The position numbers were made by a program, and so were the translations under genes. 64,000 bases of DNA from Bacteroidota bacterium (GTDB taxonomy: Bacteria > Bacteroidota > Bacteroidia > Chitinophagales > Chitinophagaceae). The notes under the pieces are model-generated. The model had not been told where the DNA came from, ran no database searches, and was given only the letters and a program-made list of their open reading frames with translations. Location of the stretch: positions 1 through 64,000 of the forward strand of contig JAUZNZ010000005.1 of the NCBI GenBank assembly GCA_030706735.1. Reading direction: 5' to 3'. This document shows, piece by piece, positions 1,622 through 62,448 of the stretch (within the stretch, counting starts at the first letter, position 1; every line of letters begins with the position of its first letter).

Positions 1622-4600
1622 ATGCGAGTATTGGTAAGTATTTTTGCTGCCTTATTGATCATCATATCCGCCTACCAGCTTTCCTTCACCTGGTTCGTAA
1701 ACAAACATGAGTCGGCCATGGATGCGCGGGCAAGGACCTATGTAAACAGGCTATACCCGTCCGCACAAACAAAATACCCCGGAGACAAGGAGGCAAGGGC
1801 CCTTTACCAGGACACGCTCGACCAGGTCTTCAACAGCCGTAAGAAGAAGCTGCTGGACAGCACCAAGGATACGAAGATCACCTGGTGGGGAACCACTTAC
1901 CAGAAATCGAAAGAAAGCGAGTTGCTGCTGGGCCTGGACCTGCAGGGAGGCATCAGCGTGACGCTCGACGTAGCGCTCGATGCCCTGATCAAGGGCCTTG
2001 CCAATAACCCCCGCGATCAGCAGGTGCTCAAGGCCATCAACCTGGCCAATGCCAAGAAGCAGACCAGGGCCGGCAATTTTATCGACCTTTTTGCCCAGTC
2101 CTATAAGGAGTTATATCCCGGCTCCAAGATGGCGCCTTTATTTGCGAACAGCAATAACAGCAACCGGCTGAAGTTCGACGCGTCCGATGATGCCGTCATC
2201 TCCTATCTGAACGAACAGGCCGTTGCGGCCATGAACCAGACCTATAAGGTATTACAGCTACGTATCGATAAATTCGGGGTCGCCCAGCCCAGCATCAGCC
2301 TGGATGCGAACAGGGGCATCATTTCCGTAGAACTGGCGGGCGCCACCGATCCGGACAGGGTACGCAAGTACTTGCAGTCCACCGCCAACCTCCAGTTCTG
2401 GGAAGTCTATAATCTCGGAGAGCTCCAGAATCCATTCCTGACGGCCGACAAATCCCTGCAAAACTATCTCAATGGCGTGAAGGATACCGGCGTCGCCAAA
2501 TCAGACTCCGGCAAGCTGGCCAAGGCCGATTCGACCAAACAGGACAGCTCCGCCGTTGCGGGTCCCAATCAAAATCCGCTGCTGAACAATCGCCTGATCC
2601 GGTTCATTCCGCCGCAGCAAGGCAAGAACGGCACGCCTCAATATTCGGCTGCTCTCGCGGTGGTCAATACAAAGGACACGGCGAAGGTGGATGAATACCT
2701 CGCCCTGCCGGTCGTGCGCAATAATTTCCCGCAGGATCTCAAGTTCCTTTGGGGCAAGCAGCGGCTGGATGAAAACGGAAAGGTGATCCCCGAACTGGAT
2801 CTCTATGCGATACGAACCATCCCCGGAAAAGACAAAGCGGAGATCGAGGGAGACGCCATCGAGGATGCCAACCAGGACTATGAGCCGGTGACCGGCGAGG
2901 TCATCGTCGAAATGAGCATGAAGAAGCAGGGCGCCAAGAAGTGGGCCGACATGACCACTAAGAATGTGGGGAAGCCCATTGCGATCGTGCTGGATGATGT
3001 CGTCTATTCGGCCCCGTTTGTGAACGAGCCGATCACGGGCGGAAATTCCCGGATCACGATGGGCGGCAGCAGGAACCAGCAGACAGTCGTCGAGGCGCAG
3101 GATCTGGCCAATATCCTCAAGTCCGGGAAACTGGATGCGCCGGCCAAGATCGTCCATGACGAGGTGGTCGGACCGACCCTCGGCAAGGAGGCGGTCAGAG
3201 GCGGCATGATGGCCTTCGGCATCTCCTTTCTGGTGATCTTTATCCTCATGCTGGTGTATTACAATACGGCAGGATGGGTGGCCAATATCGCCCTTATCCT
3301 CAACCTGTTGTTCACCATCGGCGTATTGAGTTCGCTGCATGCGACCCTCACTGCGCCGGGCATCGCCGCCCTTGTTCTCACGGTGGGCATGGCCGTCGAC
3401 ACCAATGTGATCATTTTCGAACGCATCAAGGAAGAGTTAACGCGCGGAAAATCGTACCCCCTTGCGGTGAGCGACGGTTATAAGCGCTCGCTGGCCCCCG
3501 TGCTGGATGCGCACGTGACCAACCTGCTCACGGCCCTGATCCTTTTCTATTTTGGTCTCGGCCCGGTATTGGGCTTTGCCACTACCCAGATACTGGGTAT
3601 CCTGTTGTCCTTATTCTGCGGCATCCTGGTGTCCAGGCTTGTCACGGACTATTATACCAATAAAAACCGCCACTTCAAATATTTCACGGGCCTGTCAAGC
3701 CGGATCTTCCGGCACCACGCCTTTAAGTTCATCGAATATCGCAAGGTCGCCTATGTGATCTCCGTCGTCGTTCTGATCCTGGGCGTCAGTTCCTTCTTCC
3801 ATGGGTTCAAGGAGGGCGTCGAGTTCCAGGGGGGGCGCAGCTATGTGATCGATTTTCACAAACCCGTGCAAGCCGAACAGGTACGGGCCACGCTGAAGCA
3901 ATTGGTGCCCGTGCTGGGCGATCCGGAGATCAAGACCTATGGCAGCGCCGAACAGTTGGAGATCACGTCAGACTATCTCATCAAACAGGAGGGCCCGCAA
4001 ACCGATTCGATCGTGATGAATACCCTCTATGGGGGACTGCAGAGCTTCCTACCCCAGGGGACGAGCTATCCTGAATTCACGTCCAACCGATTCATACAGG
4101 GTACCAAAAAGGTGCTGCCTACCATTTCGGACGATCTGAAGGCAGGGGCTTACCGGGCCACGATCTTTGCGCTCATCATCATCTTCCTGTATATCTTCAT
4201 TCGGTTCCGTGACTGGCGCTATTCGTTGGGAACGATCATCGCGCTGTTCCACGATATCTTCGTGACCCTGGCCGTGTTCTCTTACCTGCGGTCGCTGGTG
4301 CCCTTCTCGCTTGAGCTCAACCAGCATTTCATCGCCGCCCTGCTGACGGTTATCGGATTTTCGATGAACGATACCGTGATCGTCTTCGACAGGATCCGTG
4401 AGAACAGTCATCTCATGAAAGGGGCGAGCAATGCCGAGATCATCAATAAGTCCGTCAATGATACCCTGAGCCGAACCATCATGACCTCGTTGACGGTGTT
4501 CCTCACCCTGCTGATCCTGTTCCTGGTGGGTGGTGAAGTGACCCGGGGATTCGCATTTGCCATGCTGATCGGGGTGATCACGGGCACGTATTCGTCCATT

Positions 4601-52734: not shown

Positions 52735-52808
52735 GGCCCCGTAGCTCAATTGAATAGAGCATTTGACTACGGATCAAAAGGTTTCAGGTTTGAATCCTGA
52801 CGGGGTCA
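52735..52808 (+). tRNA. tRNA-Arg (anticodon ACG)
   Basis: The 74-base gene folds into a full cloverleaf: acceptor ggccccg/cggggtc (one G-T), D-stem gctc/gagc, anticodon stem tttga/tcaaa with loop ctacgga giving anticodon ACG, and T-stem tcagg/cctga. The discriminator is A, and CCA is not encoded. Its 3' half, from the last base of the 5' anticodon stem onward, is repeated at 62405-62448. The gene therefore remained intact at the left end after an element integrated. Confidence 0.95.
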
Positions 52809-52809
52809 C
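52766..52809 (+). repeat. attL: 44-bp direct repeat within tRNA-Arg
   Basis: This 44-base sequence starts at the anticodon arm and runs one base past the discriminator. It is identical to 62405-62448. The pair defines the ends of an integrated element of about 9.6 kb. Use of the 3' half of a tRNA as the attachment site is classic for tyrosine recombinases. Confidence 0.93.
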
Positions 52810-53176: not shown

Positions 53177-54322
53177 ATGGTGAGAAATGAATTAATGGCA
53201 GGGCTAAACCCGGCCTATGGATATCCGGAAAAATTCCATCCCCAGGCGGCGGAATTTTTTATGAATTATACCCTTGAGAAAGAACTCGGTTGCCCCAATG
53301 AAAAAATTTCTAATCTCCTGCCTCCCAAGGACCGGATTTGCAGATTCTGCAGTCTGAAATATCCCAGTGTCACATTTCGGAAGGATGCACATATATATTC
53401 AGAATTTCTTGGTAATAAATATCTTTTGTCAGACTTTGAATGTGATAATTGTAATTTGCGATTTGGCACCTACGAGGATCATTTTTCTAAATTTCTTGGC
53501 ATCGCCAGAACTATGCTGTCTGTCAAAGGGAAAGAGAAAATTCCCAAGTTTAAATCTCCTGGAGGGAAGGTAGTCATTGAAAGCGATTTAGGAGAGGGAA
53601 ATCAAACCATCATCCATGCTAAAAGAGCTATTACTTCAGACGAAACCTTTGTATTCGATGCAGAAACAAAAACGACAAAAATCAATTTTACCAAGCATCC
53701 CTATATACCTGTGAAAGCCTATAAGGCTTTGCTTAAAATGGCCCTTTCCTGTATTGACGAAAAAGAATTGTGGGCCTACAAAATGGCGTTTGAGTATCTT
53801 AAAAACGGGAAACATGATAAGGAGTGGATTGGAATGGCCCATGTGTATAGATACGCCATGCCTTACACTTTCTGCTATTTAAAACCGTGCGGCTTCCTTT
53901 ATCGAAAAAGAAATCCATTCAATCCAGCGTACACACACGTCTTTGTTTTAAACGCTTTGAATTCCATCTATCAATTTGTTGTACCCTTTCATGCTTCAGA
54001 CCTTCAGTATGCAAATAAAAAGCCTGGCCTGATTCTACCCTGGGCACCTCCACTTTTTGGGTCGCCCTATCCCTTTTCCATAAACACCATTCGGCAAATG
54101 CAACTAGACTTTTCATCCGCTGATACTGTTAGAAACGACAAGGAGTCGTTGACATTTTCCGGATCTGATGACTCCTACGAAATTGCCCGCATTATCGATA
54201 AGAGGACAGGCCAAATTAGAGAAGAAGCATTTGATGGTTCAAAAATAATTGGAATAGACTTCTTGCGCCAGCCATACGACCCGAAGGACCATGGTCCCAC
54301 AGACCCTTCAACTTTAAGTTAA
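53177..54322 (+). CDS. HNH_5-type endonuclease domain protein
   Basis: The 381-residue protein has, near its N-terminus, a zinc-finger/HNH layout: CRFC (Cys55, Cys58), then FRKDAHIYSEFLGNK (Asp70-Ala-His72), then ECDNCNLRFGTYED (Cys89, Cys92). This order matches the HNH_5 family. Residues 110-381 form a separate region of unknown fold, with beta-rich sequence and a charged end. It probably cuts DNA or RNA as an effector or homing-type function, but the target is unknown. It is the first gene inside attL and is convergent with the ubiquitin-like operon, separated by about 106 bases. Confidence 0.75.
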   Translation: MVRNELMAGLNPAYGYPEKFHPQAAEFFMNYTLEKELGCPNEKISNLLPPKDRICRFCSLKYPSVTFRKDAHIYSEFLGNKYLLSDFECDNCNLRFGTYEDHFSKFLGIARTMLSVKGKEKIPKFKSPGGKVVIESDLGEGNQTIIHAKRAITSDETFVFDAETKTTKINFTKHPYIPVKAYKALLKMALSCIDEKELWAYKMAFEYLKNGKHDKEWIGMAHVYRYAMPYTFCYLKPCGFLYRKRNPFNPAYTHVFVLNALNSIYQFVVPFHASDLQYANKKPGLILPWAPPLFGSPYPFSINTIRQMQLDFSSADTVRNDKESLTFSGSDDSYEIARIIDKRTGQIREEAFDGSKIIGIDFLRQPYDPKDHGPTDPSTLS

Positions 54323-54428: not shown

Positions 54429-54806
54429 CTACTTCCAACGGCCCTTCTTTTTGGTTTGTCGGGTTGGCTTATGTTTCCCAAAAAATTTAGTTCTCCGCAG
54501 CTCCTCTCGTTTTCTTCCCAGTTTAATTTCCTTGTCACTCCATTTAGAAGATTCGACGACTTCGTTATTTACAATCCAATAGTGCGACCGACAGTCAAAA
54601 TTCCAGTTACCAATCGATGGGCTAAGGGAAACACTTAGCCCGTCAAAGGTCAACTTCCAGTCGGTCGGTGAGATTGGCGTCACGACCTCGTTACCACACC
54701 CGCATGCGCATTTGTGCACCGCCGTTTTATATTTGATGCTGACAAATAGCCACCCATAAGGCACATCGTCTGGGATCGTTTCAACGAATTTATGCTGTAA
54801 TATCAT
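54429..54806 (-). CDS. DUF6527-family protein of the ubiquitin-like operon
   Basis: This 125-residue protein has a cysteine-rich motif CACGCG (Cys33, Cys35, Cys37) and a later DCRSHYWIVN (Cys72, His75), a likely zinc-binding set. The spacing, with LSPSIGNW between, matches the pattern I associate with DUF6527. The C-terminal 40 residues are very basic (KHKPTRQTKKKGRWK end). DUF6527 genes are often found next to E1-like and ubiquitin-like genes, which supports the call. Its start overlaps the end of the E1-like gene by 17 bases. Its role (for example substrate recognition or an E3-like function) is not known. Confidence 0.75.
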   Translation of the reverse strand: MILQHKFVETIPDDVPYGWLFVSIKYKTAVHKCACGCGNEVVTPISPTDWKLTFDGLSVSLSPSIGNWNFDCRSHYWIVNNEVVESSKWSDKEIKLGRKREELRRTKFFGKHKPTRQTKKKGRWK

Positions 54807-55986
54807 CGTTCATGAGTTTACCGGTGTTAGTGAAATATAGGTTATTGTGTTCGTGCCTTAAATCCTGGTAAAACCCAACTATTTTCTTCCATTTGATTAC
54901 TGCCAATACAGCATTCAAACAGTTGAGGTCGGCAATCTGGATATTTGATGCATATTCATTAACATCTGGCTCATCCTGTCCTATACGATTATCAAGATGA
55001 TCAAACTTCAACCTGCTAGCTGTAGTTACACGGATGGTAGCAATCAGGCTTTCATCGACCAAGTTAACTCCCAAACCTACATCTATACAAGGAACGCCCT
55101 GGCGCACTAGATGAGTGACGATTTGGTGTCGAACCCCATTCTTATCGACGGAGACAAATACAAAATCGAGTCCACTGAGATTGTCAATGTTAGCTGCGCT
55201 AATGAATTCAGGATGCACCCGAATCCCTTTATGCATACGCCCGTAGATTTCGGCAAAATAATCCACCTTGTTTCGACTTTTGCCTTGATCGAGATTCCGG
55301 CCATCAACAGCTCCCGGGGCACGGAAGGCGTTGTGAAGTTGGAATTCATCTCCATCAAACAAGTGGATTTCCGCCACGGGAGTCTTGGCAACAAGATCAA
55401 GAATGTAAGATCCTGTGCCACCAAGCCCGACTATGCCGATTCGCTGTCCAGTGAATTTTTCATTTATGATCTCTAGCCTCGCTCTTGCTGAATTAGTGTC
55501 GGGATATTGAAAAACACTATCGTCGGCTTGCGCAGGGAGCTTTTTAGGTTTAGCCAACGGTTTTGCACTGGCTTCAGAATCGATAATTCTTGCCTGCGCA
55601 CCCAATATTTCGGCATAGGTTCTTATCTTCTCATAAAAATCCTGGTATTTCCCCGTTACCGGCTTGCTGGAGAAATAATGGTTTGCCTTGATTGTCGGTG
55701 TGATTTGCTGGTCCCCGCTGCTGTTGATTATTGAAGTAAGCGGCTGTCCCTGTGCATCACAGGGTTTATCTCCGCAAAAGAAGACCGTATGGTCCTGTGG
55801 AATCGAAGTGCGATTTGGGCTCTCTAATGTGAGAACTGTGACAATGGTGCCGTACTTAACTTCCTTGCTTGAATTGACGTAGGGAATATGATGGACCAAC
55901 AGGTACGCTCCATTCAGATCAAGGTCGTAACCCTCATTAGAAAGCCGCTGAATGTCAGGACTATGACTTATCAGTTGCTGTAGCAT
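54790..55986 (-). CDS. E1-like ThiF-family adenylyltransferase with N-terminal DUF6791-type domain
   Basis: This 398-residue protein is expected to activate the C-terminus of a ubiquitin-like protein using ATP. The N-terminal domain (about 1-135) shows FFCGDKPCDAQGQPL (Cys71, Cys76) and YFSSKPVTGKYQDFYEKI, a pattern fitting DUF6791. A Pro/Lys-rich linker follows. The Rossmann-type ThiF domain (about 165-398) has the nucleotide loop GLGGTGS (187-193), acidic HLFDGDEFQLHNAFR (Asp211, Asp213, Asn219, Arg222), GKSRNK and VSVDKN. Cys356 is a candidate thioester residue. It overlaps the ubiquitin-like gene by 26 bases. Confidence 0.88.
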   Translation of the reverse strand: MLQQLISHSPDIQRLSNEGYDLDLNGAYLLVHHIPYVNSSKEVKYGTIVTVLTLESPNRTSIPQDHTVFFCGDKPCDAQGQPLTSIINSSGDQQITPTIKANHYFSSKPVTGKYQDFYEKIRTYAEILGAQARIIDSEASAKPLAKPKKLPAQADDSVFQYPDTNSARARLEIINEKFTGQRIGIVGLGGTGSYILDLVAKTPVAEIHLFDGDEFQLHNAFRAPGAVDGRNLDQGKSRNKVDYFAEIYGRMHKGIRVHPEFISAANIDNLSGLDFVFVSVDKNGVRHQIVTHLVRQGVPCIDVGLGVNLVDESLIATIRVTTASRLKFDHLDNRIGQDEPDVNEYASNIQIADLNCLNAVLAVIKWKKIVGFYQDLRHEHNNLYFTNTGKLMNDDITA

Positions 55987-56431
55987 GAAAGATCATTTTA
56001 TTTTTTACAAAAACGGTCTCTCCACGAACCATGGAGCCCTCTGGATTTTGACGTGGACCGTCTTCATAAGCCACAGTATAAACCATGGTTGGCCTGTCGT
56101 CAAATTTGCCAAATGCTAACTCGACCACCTCCTTAAAACTGATCTCATGCTTGTCCCATCGCTTTTCGCGCCCATTGACGATGATCTTTATGTCTTTAGG
56201 TGCTTCGCGAGAGAAAAAATGCTCCAGACCAGGCCGGGCTAAATCCACCTTAGTTGCGTCCATTATCAATTCATCCTCCCACGGCGCTTCAATTTTTAGA
56301 AATATCTCATCATCGGCAGAAATGCCACCAAGTTTCCGAATTTCGCTGCCAGTGATATACTGGTGGAACCATTCATGCTGCTGACCGTTAATTACCAGAT
56401 GAAGCACTTTCTTTTCGCTATCGTAATGCAT
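55961..56431 (-). CDS. Multiubiquitin-domain protein: two tandem ubiquitin-like repeats
   Basis: This 156-residue protein holds two beta-grasp units in tandem. The first is about 8-75 (VLHLVINGQQHEW to ISADDEIFLKIEAP), the second about 80-156 (IKIIVNGREKRWDKHEISFK, then VVELAFGKFDD, MVYTVAYEDGP and VRGETVFVKNKMIFHATATD). The second repeat, with its conserved TDKS end, fits the Multi_ubiq family well. There is no terminal Gly-Gly, so activation by the E1-like enzyme would need processing or a different chemistry. It is the first gene of the three-gene operon and is divergent from the sigma-factor gene. Confidence 0.88.
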   Translation of the reverse strand: MHYDSEKKVLHLVINGQQHEWFHQYITGSEIRKLGGISADDEIFLKIEAPWEDELIMDATKVDLARPGLEHFFSREAPKDIKIIVNGREKRWDKHEISFKEVVELAFGKFDDRPTMVYTVAYEDGPRQNPEGSMVRGETVFVKNKMIFHATATDKS

Positions 56432-56575
56432 CGTTGATTAATTTGATTGTTTTAAATTTGTTTGAAAGGCCTTTACTATGAATATGCTGGGCGGTTACAT
56501 TTTTTTAAAACTTGATTATCAAACAATTACGTTCTTTGCAAATTGCTTGTAACCTCTTTGCATAATAATATATAG
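56432..56575. promoter_or_regulatory. Divergent promoter region of the two cargo operons
   Basis: This 144-base AT-rich region lies between the start codons of the ubiquitin-like gene and the sigma-factor gene. Two nearby copies of a ctttgca word occur close to the sigma gene (in ttctttgcaaattgc and cctctttgcata). A shared control region for both operons is plausible. No exact -33/-7 pair was assigned. Confidence 0.45.
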
Positions 56576-57208
56576 ATGACATCCTCCACATATAACGATA
56601 TTGTTAGTCTTGTACAACAGAAAGACTGGAAGGGCTTTGAAATGCTATACAATACGTACGGACAGAAGTTCTTTTCCTTTGCTGTGAAACGTTGGTTCCT
56701 GACCGAAGACGAGGCATGGGAGGTCGTATATCAGACTCTGCAAACTTTAGTGCTTAAATTACCAATCCACAAATTCGAGTCAAAGAAACATTTCGAGAAT
56801 TTCCTCTACAAAGTATTTATTAATTACTTACGCCAGCATTATCGTCGCCATCGAAAAAAGCAGAGCGAAGAAGTAGGTTTCACAATCAGCCTTCAGGCCG
56901 CTTTTGCAGAAGACGAGCCGGCAACTAACGATGACCCTGGGTCCGCACCCGAATTGGATACCCAAGCTATTCGAGAATATTACCGTGATGATGTAGCGGA
57001 AAGTCCCAATTTAGTGGCGTTGAAATGTGCCCTTCACCAACTCAAACCGGATGAAAGAGATATCCTCTTACTGCGAGCTCAGAATTATACTTACGAAGAG
57101 ATTGCTAAAATGCTGAATATAAAGAATAACCAATTAAAAGTCAAACATCTTAGAAGCAAAAAAAAATTAATACAATTGTTAAACAAAAAAACCGCAAATC
57201 ATGGCTAA
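56576..57208 (+). CDS. Sigma-70-family RNA polymerase sigma factor on the element
   Basis: This 210-residue protein has region 2 at about 15-90 (MLYNTYGQKFFSFAVKRWFL, then EAWEVVYQTLQTLVLKL) and region 4 at about 145-205 (LHQLKPDERDILLLRAQNYT, EEIAKMLNIKNNQLKVKHLR). Between them is an acidic, low-complexity linker (EDEPATNDDPGS) longer than usual for an ECF factor. It may switch on the element's own operon. It starts the plus-strand cassette, and its last 8 bases overlap the next gene. No classical membrane anti-sigma factor is adjacent. Confidence 0.88.
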   Translation: MTSSTYNDIVSLVQQKDWKGFEMLYNTYGQKFFSFAVKRWFLTEDEAWEVVYQTLQTLVLKLPIHKFESKKHFENFLYKVFINYLRQHYRRHRKKQSEEVGFTISLQAAFAEDEPATNDDPGSAPELDTQAIREYYRDDVAESPNLVALKCALHQLKPDERDILLLRAQNYTYEEIAKMLNIKNNQLKVKHLRSKKKLIQLLNKKTANHG

Positions 57209-57812
57209 TTCAAACAAAGTTAATGCTCTAGCTGAAGCCTTGCGGATCATGTTGCTGGAAGAAGCCAGAGAGGCCGACGTGGATCTGTCAGCTAAGAAAA
57301 TGCAACTCATTCTTTCGCTGCCTGATGATACGCTAGACATGAGTAAGGAGAAGCGGCAGCAAATAGTCGACCGGCTTTTCAAAACGGCCTCGGAACCATC
57401 CCTTGGAGAATTGATCCGCGTTTCGATGAAACGCACTAAATTCACGGAGTCTAGCCTAGCCAAAGTCACTAGAGTACCCGCTACTATTCTGCGCAAACTG
57501 AAATCAGACTCCATCGTGCCTAATAAGGTTCCGGTCCTATTGTTAAGGGATATATTGAACCGATTGCAACTATCTTTTGATATAGCCGAAAAAGCCGTTC
57601 TCAAAACGTTTACTATGATCCAGAAAACAGAGTTGGATCAGTTGAAGGCTTCTCCTGTACGCGCTTGGGCGCGGCGTCCCGGCGAAGATAAAGGGAAAGT
57701 CCTGATTAATAAGACCGAGGATACTGCTGGTCGGGAGTTATACGAAAACAAGGAGTCACTAATAAAGTATTTATCGCAGTTGAAGCATTTGATGGAGGAC
57801 AAAAAGCAATAA
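57201..57812 (+). CDS. HTH-like partner protein of the element's sigma factor, unknown family
   Basis: This 203-residue soluble protein overlaps the sigma gene by 8 bases. A helix-turn-helix-like segment lies around 78-115: ESSLAKVTRVPATILRKLKS, then DSIVPNKVPVLLLRDILNRLQ. Before it is a helical domain (about 1-75). The C-terminal third is charged and Lys/Glu-rich (RRPGEDKGKVLINKTED). It has no membrane segment, so it is not a usual transmembrane anti-sigma protein; a soluble regulator of the sigma factor is a reasonable guess. No named family is recognised. Confidence 0.7.
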   Translation: MANSNKVNALAEALRIMLLEEAREADVDLSAKKMQLILSLPDDTLDMSKEKRQQIVDRLFKTASEPSLGELIRVSMKRTKFTESSLAKVTRVPATILRKLKSDSIVPNKVPVLLLRDILNRLQLSFDIAEKAVLKTFTMIQKTELDQLKASPVRAWARRPGEDKGKVLINKTEDTAGRELYENKESLIKYLSQLKHLMEDKKQ

Positions 57813-57822
57813 ACTTGTTGAA

Positions 57823-58233
57823 TTGCAAACGTATAAAATTCATATTGAAGGTTACTGGCGAGATAAAAATAAAAATGGTATACCTGACTATGCAGGCATC
57901 TATTTCGTATATACGTCCAAGTACAACGATTCGAACGACACGGTAACGCTAATAAAGCCTGTGTATGTCGGCGAAAGTGAAAACGTAAAAGAAGGTATTA
58001 TACAAAATGTATCTTTTGCCTATTGGCGAAGTTTCCTCGCCCCAGGTGAGGAGTTGTGTTTCTCAGTCGCGGAAATGGCATCGTCCGGCAGGACAGCAGT
58101 AAGAGCAGCCATTGTATTCGAACTGAAACCTGCCGCCAACACGGAATTTAAGGACTCGCAATGGCAAACTGGGTTTGAGGTGTTGATAACCGGTCGAACT
58201 AGGCTTTTGCCAGATCATCTTAAAGTACCATAA
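57823..58233 (+). CDS. GIY-YIG-like protein lacking the catalytic arginine
   Basis: This 136-residue product starts at a TTG (57823), 10 bases after the previous stop; no in-frame ATG is available. It has a GIY-YIG-type pattern: AGIYFVYTSK (Gly25-Ile-Tyr27), then PVYVGESENV (Tyr48-Val-Gly50), then the helix RAAIVFELKPAANTE with Glu100, Pro103 and Asn106 where GIY-YIG nucleases have their metal-binding Glu. The Arg that normally follows the YVG motif is missing (ENVKEGII). A DKNKNGIPD loop at 14-22 looks like a calcium-binding repeat. It may bind nucleic acid without cutting it, or use altered chemistry. Confidence 0.65.
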   Translation: MQTYKIHIEGYWRDKNKNGIPDYAGIYFVYTSKYNDSNDTVTLIKPVYVGESENVKEGIIQNVSFAYWRSFLAPGEELCFSVAEMASSGRTAVRAAIVFELKPAANTEFKDSQWQTGFEVLITGRTRLLPDHLKVP

Positions 58234-58262
58234 AAGGAAAAGCATGAGACAGAATTCAAGAT

Positions 58263-58703
58263 ATGAGCAAATCAGGCCAGATATGGGAGCAGTATATTGC
58301 GCTGGATGAAATTACCGACGAGGTAAATCGAGCTATTATCCACCTAAAGAAAGCATTTCTGCTATCCACTGAAAAAGAAAATCATCCGCGACTTGCAGTT
58401 TCGGATGCAGAAGTTCTTGTCGCCAGGAATATACTGAACGAATTGTTTCGTTTTATCTCCTCCCTCCGTCAAAAAGGCAAAGAATCGTCATATACCCGCA
58501 TGCCAGAGCCTGCAGCAACAGAACTCAGGACAAAACTTGACGCGTTGCTACCACCAAAAAGAAAAATGGCTGATTTTGAGCGGGCTATTTATTCGGGTAT
58601 AAGTCTTACCCACTATCATTTTAGGCTGCTTGATGACCTAATCAGAGCGCTAGATGCAGAACGAAGTCTCATCATTCAAAATCTCAGAAAGACAAACGCA
58701 TGA
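58263..58703 (+). CDS. Small helical protein of unknown function in the sigma cassette
   Basis: This 146-residue product is helical throughout, with no signal peptide or membrane segment. It contains DEVNRAIIHLKKAFLLSTEK near 18-37, VARNILNELFRFISSLRQKG near 53-72 and a C-terminal LLDDLIRALDAERSLIIQNL helix. It overlaps the metallopeptidase gene start by 4 bases (ATGA), so translation is coupled. Possibly an adaptor, inhibitor or antitoxin-like partner of the peptidase; this is inferred only from position. Confidence 0.7.
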   Translation: MSKSGQIWEQYIALDEITDEVNRAIIHLKKAFLLSTEKENHPRLAVSDAEVLVARNILNELFRFISSLRQKGKESSYTRMPEPAATELRTKLDALLPPKRKMADFERAIYSGISLTHYHFRLLDDLIRALDAERSLIIQNLRKTNA

Positions 58704-59833
58704 TAGCGCTCCTTAAAGGTATGTTCATTGACCTGCATAACAGGACTGACGCAATGGTCGACCGCTTGGCTAAGCAGACTTTAGATACTCCAGGCGCCAG
58801 CAGCTTTAAGGAGACAACAATCCTTGAACTGCTTGCCCTTAAGCAAAAACTCAGATCTTTACTTGATGAAGGAATACTCGATGACCCATTTTTTGCTCCC
58901 AATTCGTCGATAATATATAGTCATTTAGAGGAAGAGTTCCGGGAGATCGAACAATACTTATACCAGCCAATTAGCCGATATGACCTTAGAGCCGAAGGGT
59001 ATTTTGAGCTAATCATCCATTCTATCTACAAAGAAATTAATTTCTCACAAAAACCGCCCTTTGTCAGCACCATGTCAAACTCAGATGCTTATTTTCGCGC
59101 TTATCCGAAATACAAAATTATCATGTTGCCTCAAGGTGAAGAAAAGCATTTACTCAATCTCGGAGACCTTTACCACGAAATCGGACACTTGATTTACATG
59201 CAGTATGACACTTTCTTGATCGGTGATTTCGTTCAACGCATGACCGACCACTACCGGAATGTGCCCCAACACGGTGGAAAGAGAGACCACGGGATGAAAA
59301 TTTCTGTCCAGCATGCCAGACAAGCCTGGAAAGAAACTTGGATGGAAGAGTTGGCCTGCGACCTAATGGCAACATATGCTGTCGGCCCAGCATACGGATG
59401 GTCACATTTAAAGATTTGCGTACTGAGCAGCAAACAAAATACCCTTTTTTCCAAGTCAAATCTATTCAGGAATCATCCTCCTGATGACATTCGTATGCAA
59501 ATTATATTACGGATGTTGGACCTCATCGGGTGTAAGACCCAAGCCGCAGCCATTGCATCGACTTGGCATGACCTAACTGCAGCAACCCAAAATAGCAAGC
59601 CTCCGTATTACGACGAAGTTTTTCCAGCTGACCTACTCAGCTTAATCGCGCAAAATGTATTTAATGGATGCTGCGATATTATGTTGCAATCATATCCTCA
59701 ACAATTGGCAAACGACACCCGGCCGGTTTCAAAAATCATCAACGAAGCCTGGGATAAAATTCTCATTGATCCCGATAACTCGACCCAATGGACAATAGAA
59801 CAGATCAACAATATTTTGTCCTGGATCTTATAA
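58700..59833 (+). CDS. HExxH zinc metallopeptidase-like protein
   Basis: This 377-residue soluble protein has a gluzincin-type active site: HEIGHLIY (His159, Glu160, His163) and downstream MEELACDLMATYAVGP, where Glu217 with Asp221 (ExxxD) is the likely third zinc ligand. The N-terminal 110 residues are helical and charged, perhaps a substrate- or partner-binding domain. A C-terminal helical region follows. No signal peptide is present, so it should act in the cytoplasm. The peptidase family could not be named. It is coupled to the preceding helical protein gene and followed after 160 bases by a protein kinase gene. Confidence 0.75.
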   Translation: MIALLKGMFIDLHNRTDAMVDRLAKQTLDTPGASSFKETTILELLALKQKLRSLLDEGILDDPFFAPNSSIIYSHLEEEFREIEQYLYQPISRYDLRAEGYFELIIHSIYKEINFSQKPPFVSTMSNSDAYFRAYPKYKIIMLPQGEEKHLLNLGDLYHEIGHLIYMQYDTFLIGDFVQRMTDHYRNVPQHGGKRDHGMKISVQHARQAWKETWMEELACDLMATYAVGPAYGWSHLKICVLSSKQNTLFSKSNLFRNHPPDDIRMQIILRMLDLIGCKTQAAAIASTWHDLTAATQNSKPPYYDEVFPADLLSLIAQNVFNGCCDIMLQSYPQQLANDTRPVSKIINEAWDKILIDPDNSTQWTIEQINNILSWIL

Positions 59834-59993
59834 TGAATAAGATTCCCATTCTAACATTCCCGCACATACTGTCATGCCAATCTGTCAAGTTGTCGCGTCA
59901 ACAATAAGCGAAGAGCATTGGCTTTCCTTTTGATAGAAAGAAACAGCCCTTTAAAGCAGACCAAAATTTAGAACTTACCAAAACATCTATTTT

Positions 59994-60818
59994 ATGGGAG
60001 AATTTTTAAACAGAATAAAAACACTAGGAAGGGGTGGTCTTGGCGTAGTGTCACTCTACCAAACAACCGAAGGCCAGGTTGCTGTAAAGCAAATGCTTAA
60101 TTCTTGGGATTCTACGCTTCGAGAGCGATTTCATCGTGAAATTCAAATCATGGCAAGTCTTGTACATAAGAATATCGTGAAAATTCTCAACTACAATATA
60201 AGCCAAGCCGAACCTTGGTACACTATGAAATATTATAAGGATGGCAGCCTGCGTGATCAAATCAAGAAACTGGCCGAGCTAGGAAAAATATATAATCAAT
60301 CTGCTGCCGCCTCTATTATCTATTTTCTTGCTGATGCAATGTCACATGCCCACGCAAATAATATCATTCATCGTGATCTTAAGCCTGAGAATATTCTCTT
60401 TGAAAATGAAGAACCAAAAATTGCTGATTGGGGAATTGGTAGATTTATCCACCACCAAAGTAAGGTCTTAACGAATGAAGGCATTGGAACAAAGATTTAT
60501 TGTGCTCCGGAACAATGGCAGTCTGGAAATGCAGATCAGCGCTCAGATATTTACTCGCTTGGGATAATCTTTCGAGAACTACTAACCGGTTTAACTCACG
60601 GTACTATTTCAGACCCGATACTGAATAATATTGTCACTAAAATGACAGCTTTGAGCCCGGACGATAGATATCAGTCGATGTACGAAGTAATGCAAGCAAT
60701 TCAGACCCTAGAAATCGTTAATACAGAAAATCCGATGCAAGCATTTTGGGAGGGAGCTGCAAAAGTGGCGATCACGGCAGGACTTGCATGGCTATTAATA
60801 AATGCACTCAGTGACTAA
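59994..60818 (+). CDS. Tail-anchored Hanks-type Ser/Thr protein kinase
   Basis: This 274-residue kinase has the glycine-rich loop LGRGGLGVVSLYQ (about 11-23), the ATP-lysine Lys32 in VAVKQ, Glu49, the catalytic loop IIHRDLKPENIL with Asp128 and Asn133, then the metal site IADWGIGRF. The usual DFG is changed to DWG (Asp145-Trp-Gly147). APEQW follows at 171-175. The last 22 residues (AAKVAITAGLAWLLINALSD) form a hydrophobic tail, so it is probably membrane-anchored by its C-terminus. All catalytic residues are present, so it should be active. It may phosphorylate a cassette protein. Confidence 0.88.
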   Translation: MGEFLNRIKTLGRGGLGVVSLYQTTEGQVAVKQMLNSWDSTLRERFHREIQIMASLVHKNIVKILNYNISQAEPWYTMKYYKDGSLRDQIKKLAELGKIYNQSAAASIIYFLADAMSHAHANNIIHRDLKPENILFENEEPKIADWGIGRFIHHQSKVLTNEGIGTKIYCAPEQWQSGNADQRSDIYSLGIIFRELLTGLTHGTISDPILNNIVTKMTALSPDDRYQSMYEVMQAIQTLEIVNTENPMQAFWEGAAKVAITAGLAWLLINALSD

Positions 60819-60841: not shown

Positions 60842-62221
60842 TTATCGATTAGAATAGGTTTTATCATTTGGTCCCTTAATGATTTCCATCCTCTGTGAAG
60901 CAAGCCTTTTCTGCTCAATGGGTAAACTCCCCACATACCGTTTGGTTGTCCGGGGATCCATATGCCCCATGAATTCCTGCACATCAAAGAGCGATGCGCC
61001 ACCCGCTATTTGCATGGTAGCAAAGGTTGATCTCAAATAATAACACCGCCCCGGCTTATTAACGCCTACTTCCTTTAGTATAAAGGATAGCCACTTGTTT
61101 ATAAATTCGATTAGAAGCTGCCGTTCCTGATATTCTCTCAATGGATTCATTCCAGGTTTAAGAATTGGGAAAAGATAGCTCTCAGGGTCTTCAATGATAT
61201 TACCATTTTCATCCCGGGAGCACTGCCGATCGATGATTTGCTTTATTTCGTCATTAATGTAAATAGCAATTGACGGGGGATCTTCCTTCGCAATCTCTTC
61301 GGTTTTTACCCGCTCAAATACGATAAGATTACCCTGAATATTCTTTCGTTTTAGCCGAACGATATCAGCCGGGTTAATACCATTGCCAAACAGAATAAAT
61401 AAGGAATAATCTTTGGCGCGCTGCAGCCAGGGTTTTTCCGGATCACATTGATATCCGTAAATTTTACGAAGTTCTTCAACCTCGTACACTTTTTTTACGC
61501 TTCTCGTCCCGGGGATACGATATTCCTTCTTGCCAAATGGATAACAGTTCTCCTTCTTAATTATTTTCATGTCATGGGCCTCATTGAACACATGGCGAAG
61601 GTGCCTAATATACATCCCGACAGTCGTTTTGCTGTTACCTAAACCCTTCATCCATTCTGTGTAATTGTATAAGTAAAGCTTGTTAATTCTTTTAAATTTC
61701 ACATTCCCGCCGAATTTTACCAACGAGATATAGGCACTTTGATAAAGGATGGCGGTACTAACTTTGCCGATAACAATTTTAAACTTGATCAATTCCTTAA
61801 ATACATGGCCGATTGTCCCTATTTCAAGGCTCTCCTGCAAGATGGGAAACCTCTTATAGTATTCAGTCAGGTCAAACGGCTCTTGCGCGGGCACCGAAAC
61901 CTTTATCTTCAGCTTGGTCTGGTCGATTTCAGGATTATCCTTAATAAACCTCAGCTCGAACTGGTCAAAATCAAAAGGGTCCAGTTCATCTGCTGCCTCC
62001 TGGGCTTTAACACGTAGATTATTGAATGCCTTACGGAGGTTTTGTACTTTTTCACTTACCCGTTGTTGAGACCAGGCTTTGATCTCGTCTGCGGTAATTC
62101 CGTAAACCGTGGTGTACATCCGCATATCGCCGGTTTCATAAATGCGAAGTTTGACTGGATAATCTTTTGTCTTAGAACGGAACCGACGTTTGTCATGATA
62201 AATGTCTACTCTGATTGCCAT
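60842..62221 (-). CDS. Tyrosine recombinase (site-specific integrase) of the element
   Basis: This 459-residue integrase starts at the ATG at 62221 (MAIRVDIYHDKRRF); a longer frame to 62245 is less likely. It has an N-terminal arm-binding region, a SAM-like core-binding domain in the middle (KTTVGMYIRHLRHVFNEAHD) and a C-terminal catalytic domain with YYLRSTFATM (Arg397), GHMDPRTTKRY (His420 and nucleophilic Tyr429). The first catalytic Arg position reads as GINPADIVRLKR, as in many Bacteroidota integrases, so a different residue may act there. It lies 183 bases from attR and should drive insertion into tRNA-Arg. It is convergent with the kinase. Confidence 0.93.
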   Translation of the reverse strand: MAIRVDIYHDKRRFRSKTKDYPVKLRIYETGDMRMYTTVYGITADEIKAWSQQRVSEKVQNLRKAFNNLRVKAQEAADELDPFDFDQFELRFIKDNPEIDQTKLKIKVSVPAQEPFDLTEYYKRFPILQESLEIGTIGHVFKELIKFKIVIGKVSTAILYQSAYISLVKFGGNVKFKRINKLYLYNYTEWMKGLGNSKTTVGMYIRHLRHVFNEAHDMKIIKKENCYPFGKKEYRIPGTRSVKKVYEVEELRKIYGYQCDPEKPWLQRAKDYSLFILFGNGINPADIVRLKRKNIQGNLIVFERVKTEEIAKEDPPSIAIYINDEIKQIIDRQCSRDENGNIIEDPESYLFPILKPGMNPLREYQERQLLIEFINKWLSFILKEVGVNKPGRCYYLRSTFATMQIAGGASLFDVQEFMGHMDPRTTKRYVGSLPIEQKRLASQRMEIIKGPNDKTYSNR

Positions 62222-62404
62222 AGCTTCTCCAATTTGTGCTCTCAAAATCTCCGGTTATTTGCACAGAATTTGCACAAAAACTCTGCTTAAACGGCCTTCG
62301 GACCAATAAGGCAAAGTTTGGGAAAAACTACTTAACTATTGATATTCAAATAGTTAAGTTAAGGCAAGTTCGGACGAGTTAAGCCCAGTTAAGTCGATTT
62401 TGGA

Positions 62405-62448
62405 ACTACGGATCAAAAGGTTTCAGGTTTGAATCCTGACGGGGTCAC
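62405..62448 (+). repeat. attR: 44-bp direct repeat
   Basis: This is an exact copy of 52766-52809, the 3' half of tRNA-Arg. It marks the right end of the element. The chromosome continues to the right with the original tRNA terminator. Confidence 0.93.

Follow-up and report, generated by a model that had tools for sequence, protein, structure and literature searches.

The 64,000-nucleotide window analysed here (positions 1 to 64,000 of contig JAUZNZ010000005.1 from a Chitinophagaceae bacterium, GenBank assembly GCA_030706735.1) raises the question of whether the closely packed genes at 56576-60818 constitute a functional unit and, if so, what such a unit might control. The first-pass annotation had read them as a candidate system of six proteins, namely a sigma factor, a helix-turn-helix (HTH)-like protein, a GIY-YIG-like protein, a small helical protein, an HExxH peptidase, and a Ser/Thr kinase. 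As described below, most of these genes recur as a set, and the reading that we favor, with belief and doubt evenly balanced, is that the set serves as the controller of an adjacent pathway, in which a private sigma switch, released by proteolysis, would turn on a neighboring immunity operon.

Recurrence and boundaries of the cassette

The coordinates first assigned to the six plus-strand genes were reproduced base for base: the sigma factor (56576-57208), the HTH protein (57201-57812), the GIY-YIG-like protein (57823-58233, TTG start), the helical protein (58263-58703), the HExxH peptidase (58700-59833), and the kinase (59994-60818). The spacing was likewise as described, with overlaps of 8 bases (sigma/HTH) and 4 bases (helical/HExxH) and gaps of 10, 29, and 160 bases at the other junctions.

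Relatives were collected with the peptidase, which matched 7 of 195 genomes of the family (one, G055, judged spurious), 8 of 395 genomes of the phylum by profile (one, G462, judged spurious), and 6 of 395 genomes of the class (five shared with the phylum set), and which also gave 22 loci from genome contigs and 5 plasmid records. Same-genome duplicates (L018, L021, L029, L043, L087), a locus with the peptidase in three pieces (L035), and two chance hits with no neighborhood (L013, L048) were removed to give 33 loci, among which the near-copies L014/L015, L022/L031, L023/L034, and L028/L030 were retained.

The order sigma-HTH...helical protein-HExxH peptidase was found in 26 of the 33 loci, across several families and on plasmids. 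Between the regulator and the peptidase, 29/33 loci carry a Cas4-like nuclease and a long prokaryotic Argonaute (pAgo); the pair is missing from four loci, namely the window, two from Fibrella, and one from Solirubrobacterales. Each of the three Cas4-like proteins checked matched PDDEXK_1 and the PADLOC model Aga_Cas4-like_Nuc, all three checked pAgo proteins matched pAgo_II, and the pAgo profile matched solved pAgo structures (best 9wmd, 1056 bits). The helical gene was recognized in 28 loci (the window and 27 others), in 24 of which it meets the peptidase gene at a junction of -4 or -1 bases; five further loci have an unrecognized small gene at the same position. Because the gene order recurs and this junction is so regular, the packing is beyond chance. 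The genes thus form a real recurring unit, and their homologues, far from always occurring singly, occur as a set.

The whole cassette lies in a 9.7-kb island bounded by 44-bp attachment (att) repeats at a tRNA-Arg gene. The left repeat (52766-52809, plus strand) is the 3' part of the tRNA gene (52735-52809) and is identical to the right repeat (62405-62448, plus strand), and a tyrosine-type integrase gene (60842-62245, minus strand; named by eye from its sequence) occupies the far end, between the cargo and the right repeat. Such a setting could in principle bring unrelated cargo genes together fortuitously, but the recurrence across families and plasmids already contradicts this explanation, which we find hardly credible.

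The kinase requires separate consideration, as it had been proposed to sense the trigger and to activate the peptidase as a sixth component. Its family label is clear (PF00069, 9.8e-44), and the gene follows the peptidase on the same strand at a distance of 160 bases. A kinase gene was, however, found near the module in only two of the 33 loci, the window and L047, on the opposite strand in the latter. Its membership in the system is hence not supported, the kinase was rejected as a core component, and a sensing role is very unlikely; it probably stands outside the switch and is described here as island cargo. The PADLOC model PDLC04047 (PD-T4-6 kinase) also matched it (2.4e-51), with generic kinase models scoring alike.

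The HExxH peptidase and its helical partner

The peptidase, for which a confident structural model was obtained (mean pLDDT 88.2), bears a gluzincin-type HExxH...ExxxD signature. His159, Glu160, His163, and Glu217...Asp221 did not vary in any of the 22 relatives aligned, and on account of this conservation the enzyme is probably active. At E ≤ 1, none of the families of Pfam, PADLOC, and NCBIfam matched it. Placement in a known fold was tried and rejected, Foldseek returning nothing at E ≤ 0.001 (human MATCAP, at rank 42 with E 3.1, was not used), and a sequence-profile search of the Protein Data Bank (PDB) gave chance-level matches only, the best (E 0.0046) being to a helical stretch. No relatives of the peptidase were found in viral contigs. 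The helical protein gave nothing usable as a PDB sequence-profile query. Most of its Bacteroidota relatives carry a strongly conserved C-terminal tail, LFRKLRTxRG, which the window copy lacks.

The sigma factor and the HTH protein

The label of the first gene as a sigma-70 family factor, resembling the extracytoplasmic function (ECF) type, is supported by family models (TIGR02937, 7.9e-18; PF08281, 8.1e-11). That of the second gene held only in part: the protein matched no HTH family in Pfam and one in NCBIfam weakly (E 0.014), but its predicted structure comprises an XRE-like core (approximately residues 67-145, pLDDT approximately 90), followed by a disordered linker (151-178) that leads to a C-terminal helix (184-202), which is ordered and conserved. 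The resemblance of the core to XRE/cro proteins was detected by Foldseek with a best E of 0.041 at probability 1.00, none reaching E ≤ 0.001; the protein gave nothing usable as a PDB sequence-profile query. We propose that it may act as an anti-sigma factor or repressor and as the substrate of the peptidase.

In six loci (L046, L090, L091, L032, L033, and L047), a canonical XRE (HTH_3) gene replaces both the sigma and the HTH genes while the peptidase is retained, and in L092 no regulator gene was recognized.

A shared motif upstream of the sigma genes

A motif of the form GTAACC-N5-KCAT, usually followed by TAR, was found upstream of 24 of 26 sigma genes; for the sigma genes of L009 and L016, a start codon was chosen manually, downstream of the open reading frame (ORF) start called mechanically, since the motif otherwise falls inside the first codons. 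Of the 24 cases, 18 have TAR precisely at position 25 and 21 have it at positions 24-26, whereas most other positions gave counts of 1-4, with 11 at position 21. A matrix was built from 20 of the sites, leaving out the window, L088, L015, and L034, and scored the window copy facing the sigma gene (56549-56564, plus strand, 27 nt before the start codon) at 30.1. A second copy, GTAACC-N5-GCATA (56483-56498, minus strand), faces the divergent ubiquitin-like operon described below, 67 nt before its start codon, and scored 13.7; the corresponding opposite-strand copy in the Spirosoma locus L088 scored 18.8. An independent repeat search reported both window copies as inverted arms.

At a score of ≥13, the matrix gave 45 hits over 1.72 million positions, compared with 11 for the reversed control, and at ≥17, 29 hits compared with 1, training sites being included in both counts; many of the 45 are sites from which the matrix itself was built, and three count L020 a second time, as L087. 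In the window's 5-Mb genome, the exact core occurs three times (once in the backwards control), of which two copies lie in the 144-bp gap between the sigma gene and the ubiquitin-like operon and one lies inside an ORF. A stricter pattern matched 17 times in 10 genomes, 9 of these at sigma genes; because the other 8 are comparable to the 6 in the backwards control, the motif is private to the locus.

ECF sigma factors recognize promoters with an AAC-type -35 box separated by approximately 18 bases from a -10 box such as TAR. Since the motif has this form and spacing, we infer that the sigma factor uses it as a promoter of its own, in both orientations. The earlier suggestion that a sigma factor transcribing its own gene forms part of a switch-controlled response fits the presence of the motif both before the sigma gene and before the neighboring operon.

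The same motif could instead be an operator for the HTH protein, which would repress both operons and be cut by the peptidase in a CapP-like manner, the sigma factor merely amplifying the response. In keeping with such a site, the HTH core is XRE-like, canonical XRE genes can stand in for sigma and HTH, the motif lies near start codons, and the KCAT middle box falls inside the would-be promoter spacer. The motif, however, lacks the palindromic form of the two copies that precede the XRE gene in the Runella locus L090, and its AAC-type box and TAR stand at ECF-like spacing; we regard the operator explanation as unlikely. A shared operator in L090 itself was considered and rejected, as its palindromes precede the XRE gene and not the ubiquitin-like operon.

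Neighboring operons as candidate effectors

A minus-strand operon, separated from the sigma gene by 144 bases and divergent from it, encodes a multiubiquitin protein with two Multi_ubiq stretches (55961-56431; PF14452, 3.8e-27), an E1-like DUF6791-ThiF protein (54790-55986; PF20590, 6.8e-50; PF00899, 8.7e-12), and, as its third gene, a DUF6527 protein (54429-54806; PF20137, 2.3e-25). This operon, the shared motif, and the att repeats bounding the island had all been overlooked in the first-pass annotation. The Multi_ubiq-E1-DUF6527 operon adjoins the module in three of the 33 loci, namely the window and the plasmid loci L088 (Spirosoma) and L090 (Runella), all of which were found with the peptidase and not with the ubiquitin-like genes. 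In the window and in L088 it runs divergently to the sigma gene, and in L090 it follows the peptidase gene in the same direction. The three peptidases stand at different places in the peptidase tree, the backbone of which is weak. In the window's family, among the chosen proteins tested, an M78 (ImmA/IrrE) peptidase lies near at least 6 of 11 other Multi_ubiq loci, in what would be the same slot, which speaks for the controller reading.

Elsewhere the neighbors vary. A DUF900 hydrolase adjoins the module in L022 and L024, and in L026 and L031 as judged by likeness of length and start; a motif copy faces the DUF900 gene in L022 and L031, of which the matrix lists L031 only (13.3). These two loci are close relatives, yet both boxes are kept while the intervening bases have changed. 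Other neighbors include a subtilase and a metallo-beta-lactamase fold (MBL) protein in L016, McrBC in L020, PIN_2 in L027, an AAA ATPase in L044, a caspase-like protein and an LmuA-like MBL protein beside L029, and, by annotation, a phospholipase of the type found in cyclic-oligonucleotide-based antiphage signaling systems (CBASS) beside L091. These varied genes may represent effectors of the switch.

Alternatively, the peptidase itself could be a toxic effector switched on by the pAgo or the GIY-YIG-like protein, with the sigma factor and HTH protein setting its dosage and the ubiquitin-like operon being an independent neighbor within a defense island. This would agree with the retention of the peptidase and helical protein when the regulator changes and when the pAgo is absent, and with the 30 of 33 loci that lack a Multi_ubiq neighbor and have varied defense-type neighbors. 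The motif copies that face the neighboring operon in the window, L088, L022, and L031 argue against it, and we consider it rather improbable.

A few further features were observed around these loci. In L082, a genome of the window's family, a weak sigma-like gene (3448-4122, minus strand; Sigma70_r2, E 3.2e-4, below the cut-off) is divergent from a Multi_ubiq operon, and the 99-base gap between them (4122-4222) contains GTTACA and TGTAAC boxes in both directions; this locus may be another, distant example of sigma control, one that lacks the peptidase. In the four Cytophagia-type loci L044, L045, L088, and L089, a convergent pair consisting of an AAA ATPase (AAA_21 in L044) and a protein of 279-293 residues lies downstream of the peptidase; the likeness of this pair to Septu/PtuAB was judged only by eye. 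The module is often flanked by large helicase-like genes (L008, L014, L015, L017, L019, L022, L024, L026, and L046), PIF1 being confirmed in L014 and L022 and the others assigned by length or sequence start. In the window, an HNH_5-like gene (53177-54322; E 3.6e-6, 0.2 bits under the Pfam cut-off) lies between the tRNA-Arg gene and the ubiquitin-like operon.

The GIY-YIG-like protein in place of pAgo

In the window, the position of the Cas4-like and pAgo genes is taken by the GIY-YIG-like gene. The pAgo profile found no pAgo in the cassette or anywhere in the window's genome (E ≤ 0.001), and there was no cas4 profile match near the module; because the pair is missing, any sensor in the window would have to be a different one. 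The GIY-YIG label stood only partly: the window protein matched no GIY-YIG family of Pfam, but seven plasmid relatives are annotated as GIY-YIG, one of two relatives tested reached PF01541 below the cut-off (E 0.0016), and the GIY and YVG motifs are present and aligned with those of the relatives. In an alignment of three sequences, the window protein has Gly, Asn, and Arg where a Synechococcus relative has Arg, His, and Glu, which we take to be the catalytic residues of GIY-YIG enzymes. Given this loss, the protein is likely, judging from the alignment, to bind rather than to cut.

Relatives of the protein occurred in 2 of 395 genomes, one of them that of the window, and in seven plasmid records, with none in viral contigs or phages. 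In the two records opened, no peptidase gene adjoined the relative, and these relatives were therefore rejected as markers of further cassettes.

Relation to described systems

Individually, operons of sigma factor, Cas4-like nuclease, and pAgo, Multi_ubiq operons, and islands at tRNA genes are all ordinary. Lisitskaya et al. (2022; PMC9360449) described two groups of DNA-guided RNA-targeting pAgos, both encoded behind a Cas4-like nuclease, with a sigma-70 factor in the PnyAgo group and an HTH regulator in the PliAgo group, so that a sigma or HTH regulator, a Cas4-like nuclease, and a pAgo are common to those operons and the present loci. L024 is indeed from Pedobacter nyackensis, the PnyAgo species, and L090 carries the R. 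slithyformis pAgo accession used in that study. The claim that no described system shows this combination thus could not be upheld, the window cassette being a relative of these published operons that has the sigma-70 gene first and neither pAgo nor Cas4-like nuclease. The words protease and peptidase do not occur in the main text of that paper, nor do sigma, peptidase, or protease in that of a 2018 survey (PMC6299218). As far as the literature searches and these main texts go, the sigma-pAgo link was already known, and the HTH partner, the helical protein, the peptidase, the neighboring operons, and the motif appear to be additions.

With regard to the ubiquitin-like genes, the window operon has Multi_ubiq (PF14452), DUF6791-ThiF (PF20590 and PF00899), and DUF6527 (PF20137) in order and was filed as Bub-like by resemblance. 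According to a 2026 paper (PMC13373217), in which the word Argonaute does not occur, 219 of 544 Bub operons lie beside CapW or CapH and CapP, and 59 beside CapK and CapS. CapH/CapP share with our module an HTH regulator and a metallopeptidase next to a ubiquitin-like conjugation operon, and the XRE gene and zincin of the six sigma-less loci amount to the CapH/CapP arrangement. The module differs in adding a sigma factor; moreover, the window peptidase matches no Peptidase_M78 (ImmA/IrrE) model. With respect to the XRE-type repressor CapH, the window HTH protein matches no Pfam HTH family and has an XRE-like predicted core (best Foldseek E 0.041). In the CapH/CapP pair the HTH protein is cut on ssDNA binding, and a cut of the HTH protein is what we propose for the module.

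In Calp (CalpL-CalpT-CalpS) and Craspase, nucleic-acid-guided immunity involves a protease-controlled sigma factor, which is restrained by an anti-sigma protein that the protease cuts, and the control proposed for the module would be alike. Their proteases are, however, Lon-SAVED or caspase-like, whereas that of the module is an HExxH metallopeptidase, and the cassette has no CRISPR genes. By analogy with CapH/CapP, CapW, CapK and CapS, and Calp, the cassette would belong with the controllers of adjacent immune pathways. New in it are the conserved peptidase-HTH-sigma core, the putative private two-way promoter facing immunity-type operons, and the variant in which the Argonaute is replaced.

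Proposed mechanism

In the pathway controller that we propose, the XRE-like HTH protein would at rest keep either the ECF-type sigma factor or the promoters that it uses inactive. A sensor, that is the pAgo with the Cas4-like nuclease in most loci and the GIY-YIG-like protein in the window, would detect an invader or nucleic-acid damage and, by way of the helical partner, activate the HExxH peptidase. Cleavage of the HTH protein by this enzyme, probably within the disordered linker, would then free the sigma factor to transcribe, from the GTAACC...TAR promoters, both the operon to which it belongs and the divergent operon of Multi_ubiq, E1, and DUF6527, whereupon the latter would carry out the response by conjugating its ubiquitin-like protein.

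Several points weigh against this proposal. The motif is absent before the sigma genes of the two Fibrella loci (L028, L030) and present at only two of the four DUF900 neighbors; the window copy facing the ubiquitin-like operon is weak, with no TAR box at position 25, and that of L088 lies 311 nt from the operon's start codon. In several loci the motif is 27-34 nt from the start codon, so that a promoter there would yield an almost leaderless mRNA. Motif-like matches also occur inside the sigma coding regions of L023, L025, and L027 (14.4-21.6), approximately 100 nt after the start, where they may only reflect kept protein sequence, and a few others occur elsewhere with no gene behind them. 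The link to Multi_ubiq is not obligate, since none of the 11 other Multi_ubiq loci of the window's family that were fetched (from 13 other genomes with a match) has relatives of the HTH, helical, or peptidase genes. The sensor in the window is a guess, and every protein-protein step (proteolysis and sigma inhibition), the direction of control, and the defense function, including any anti-phage action, are what we infer.

More tentatively, and with doubt prevailing, the module could be a guide-programmed transcription switch, in which a DNA-guided RNA-sensing Argonaute would signal through the HExxH peptidase to a private sigma factor, which would be freed to transcribe an exchangeable effector operon (in the window, a ubiquitin-like conjugation pathway), the Argonaute having been swapped in the window for a catalytically dead GIY-YIG protein.

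According to the 2026 paper cited above, a defense role of the ubiquitin-like operons is not yet demonstrated. If the proposed pathway holds, what triggers these operons would become testable, and the sigma factor noted without a role in 2022 would be explained. DNA-guided RNA-targeting Argonautes would then gain a job as an alarm that starts transcription, rather than as a cutter alone, and a single pathway would connect Argonautes with a sigma factor and with ubiquitin-like conjugation in bacteria.

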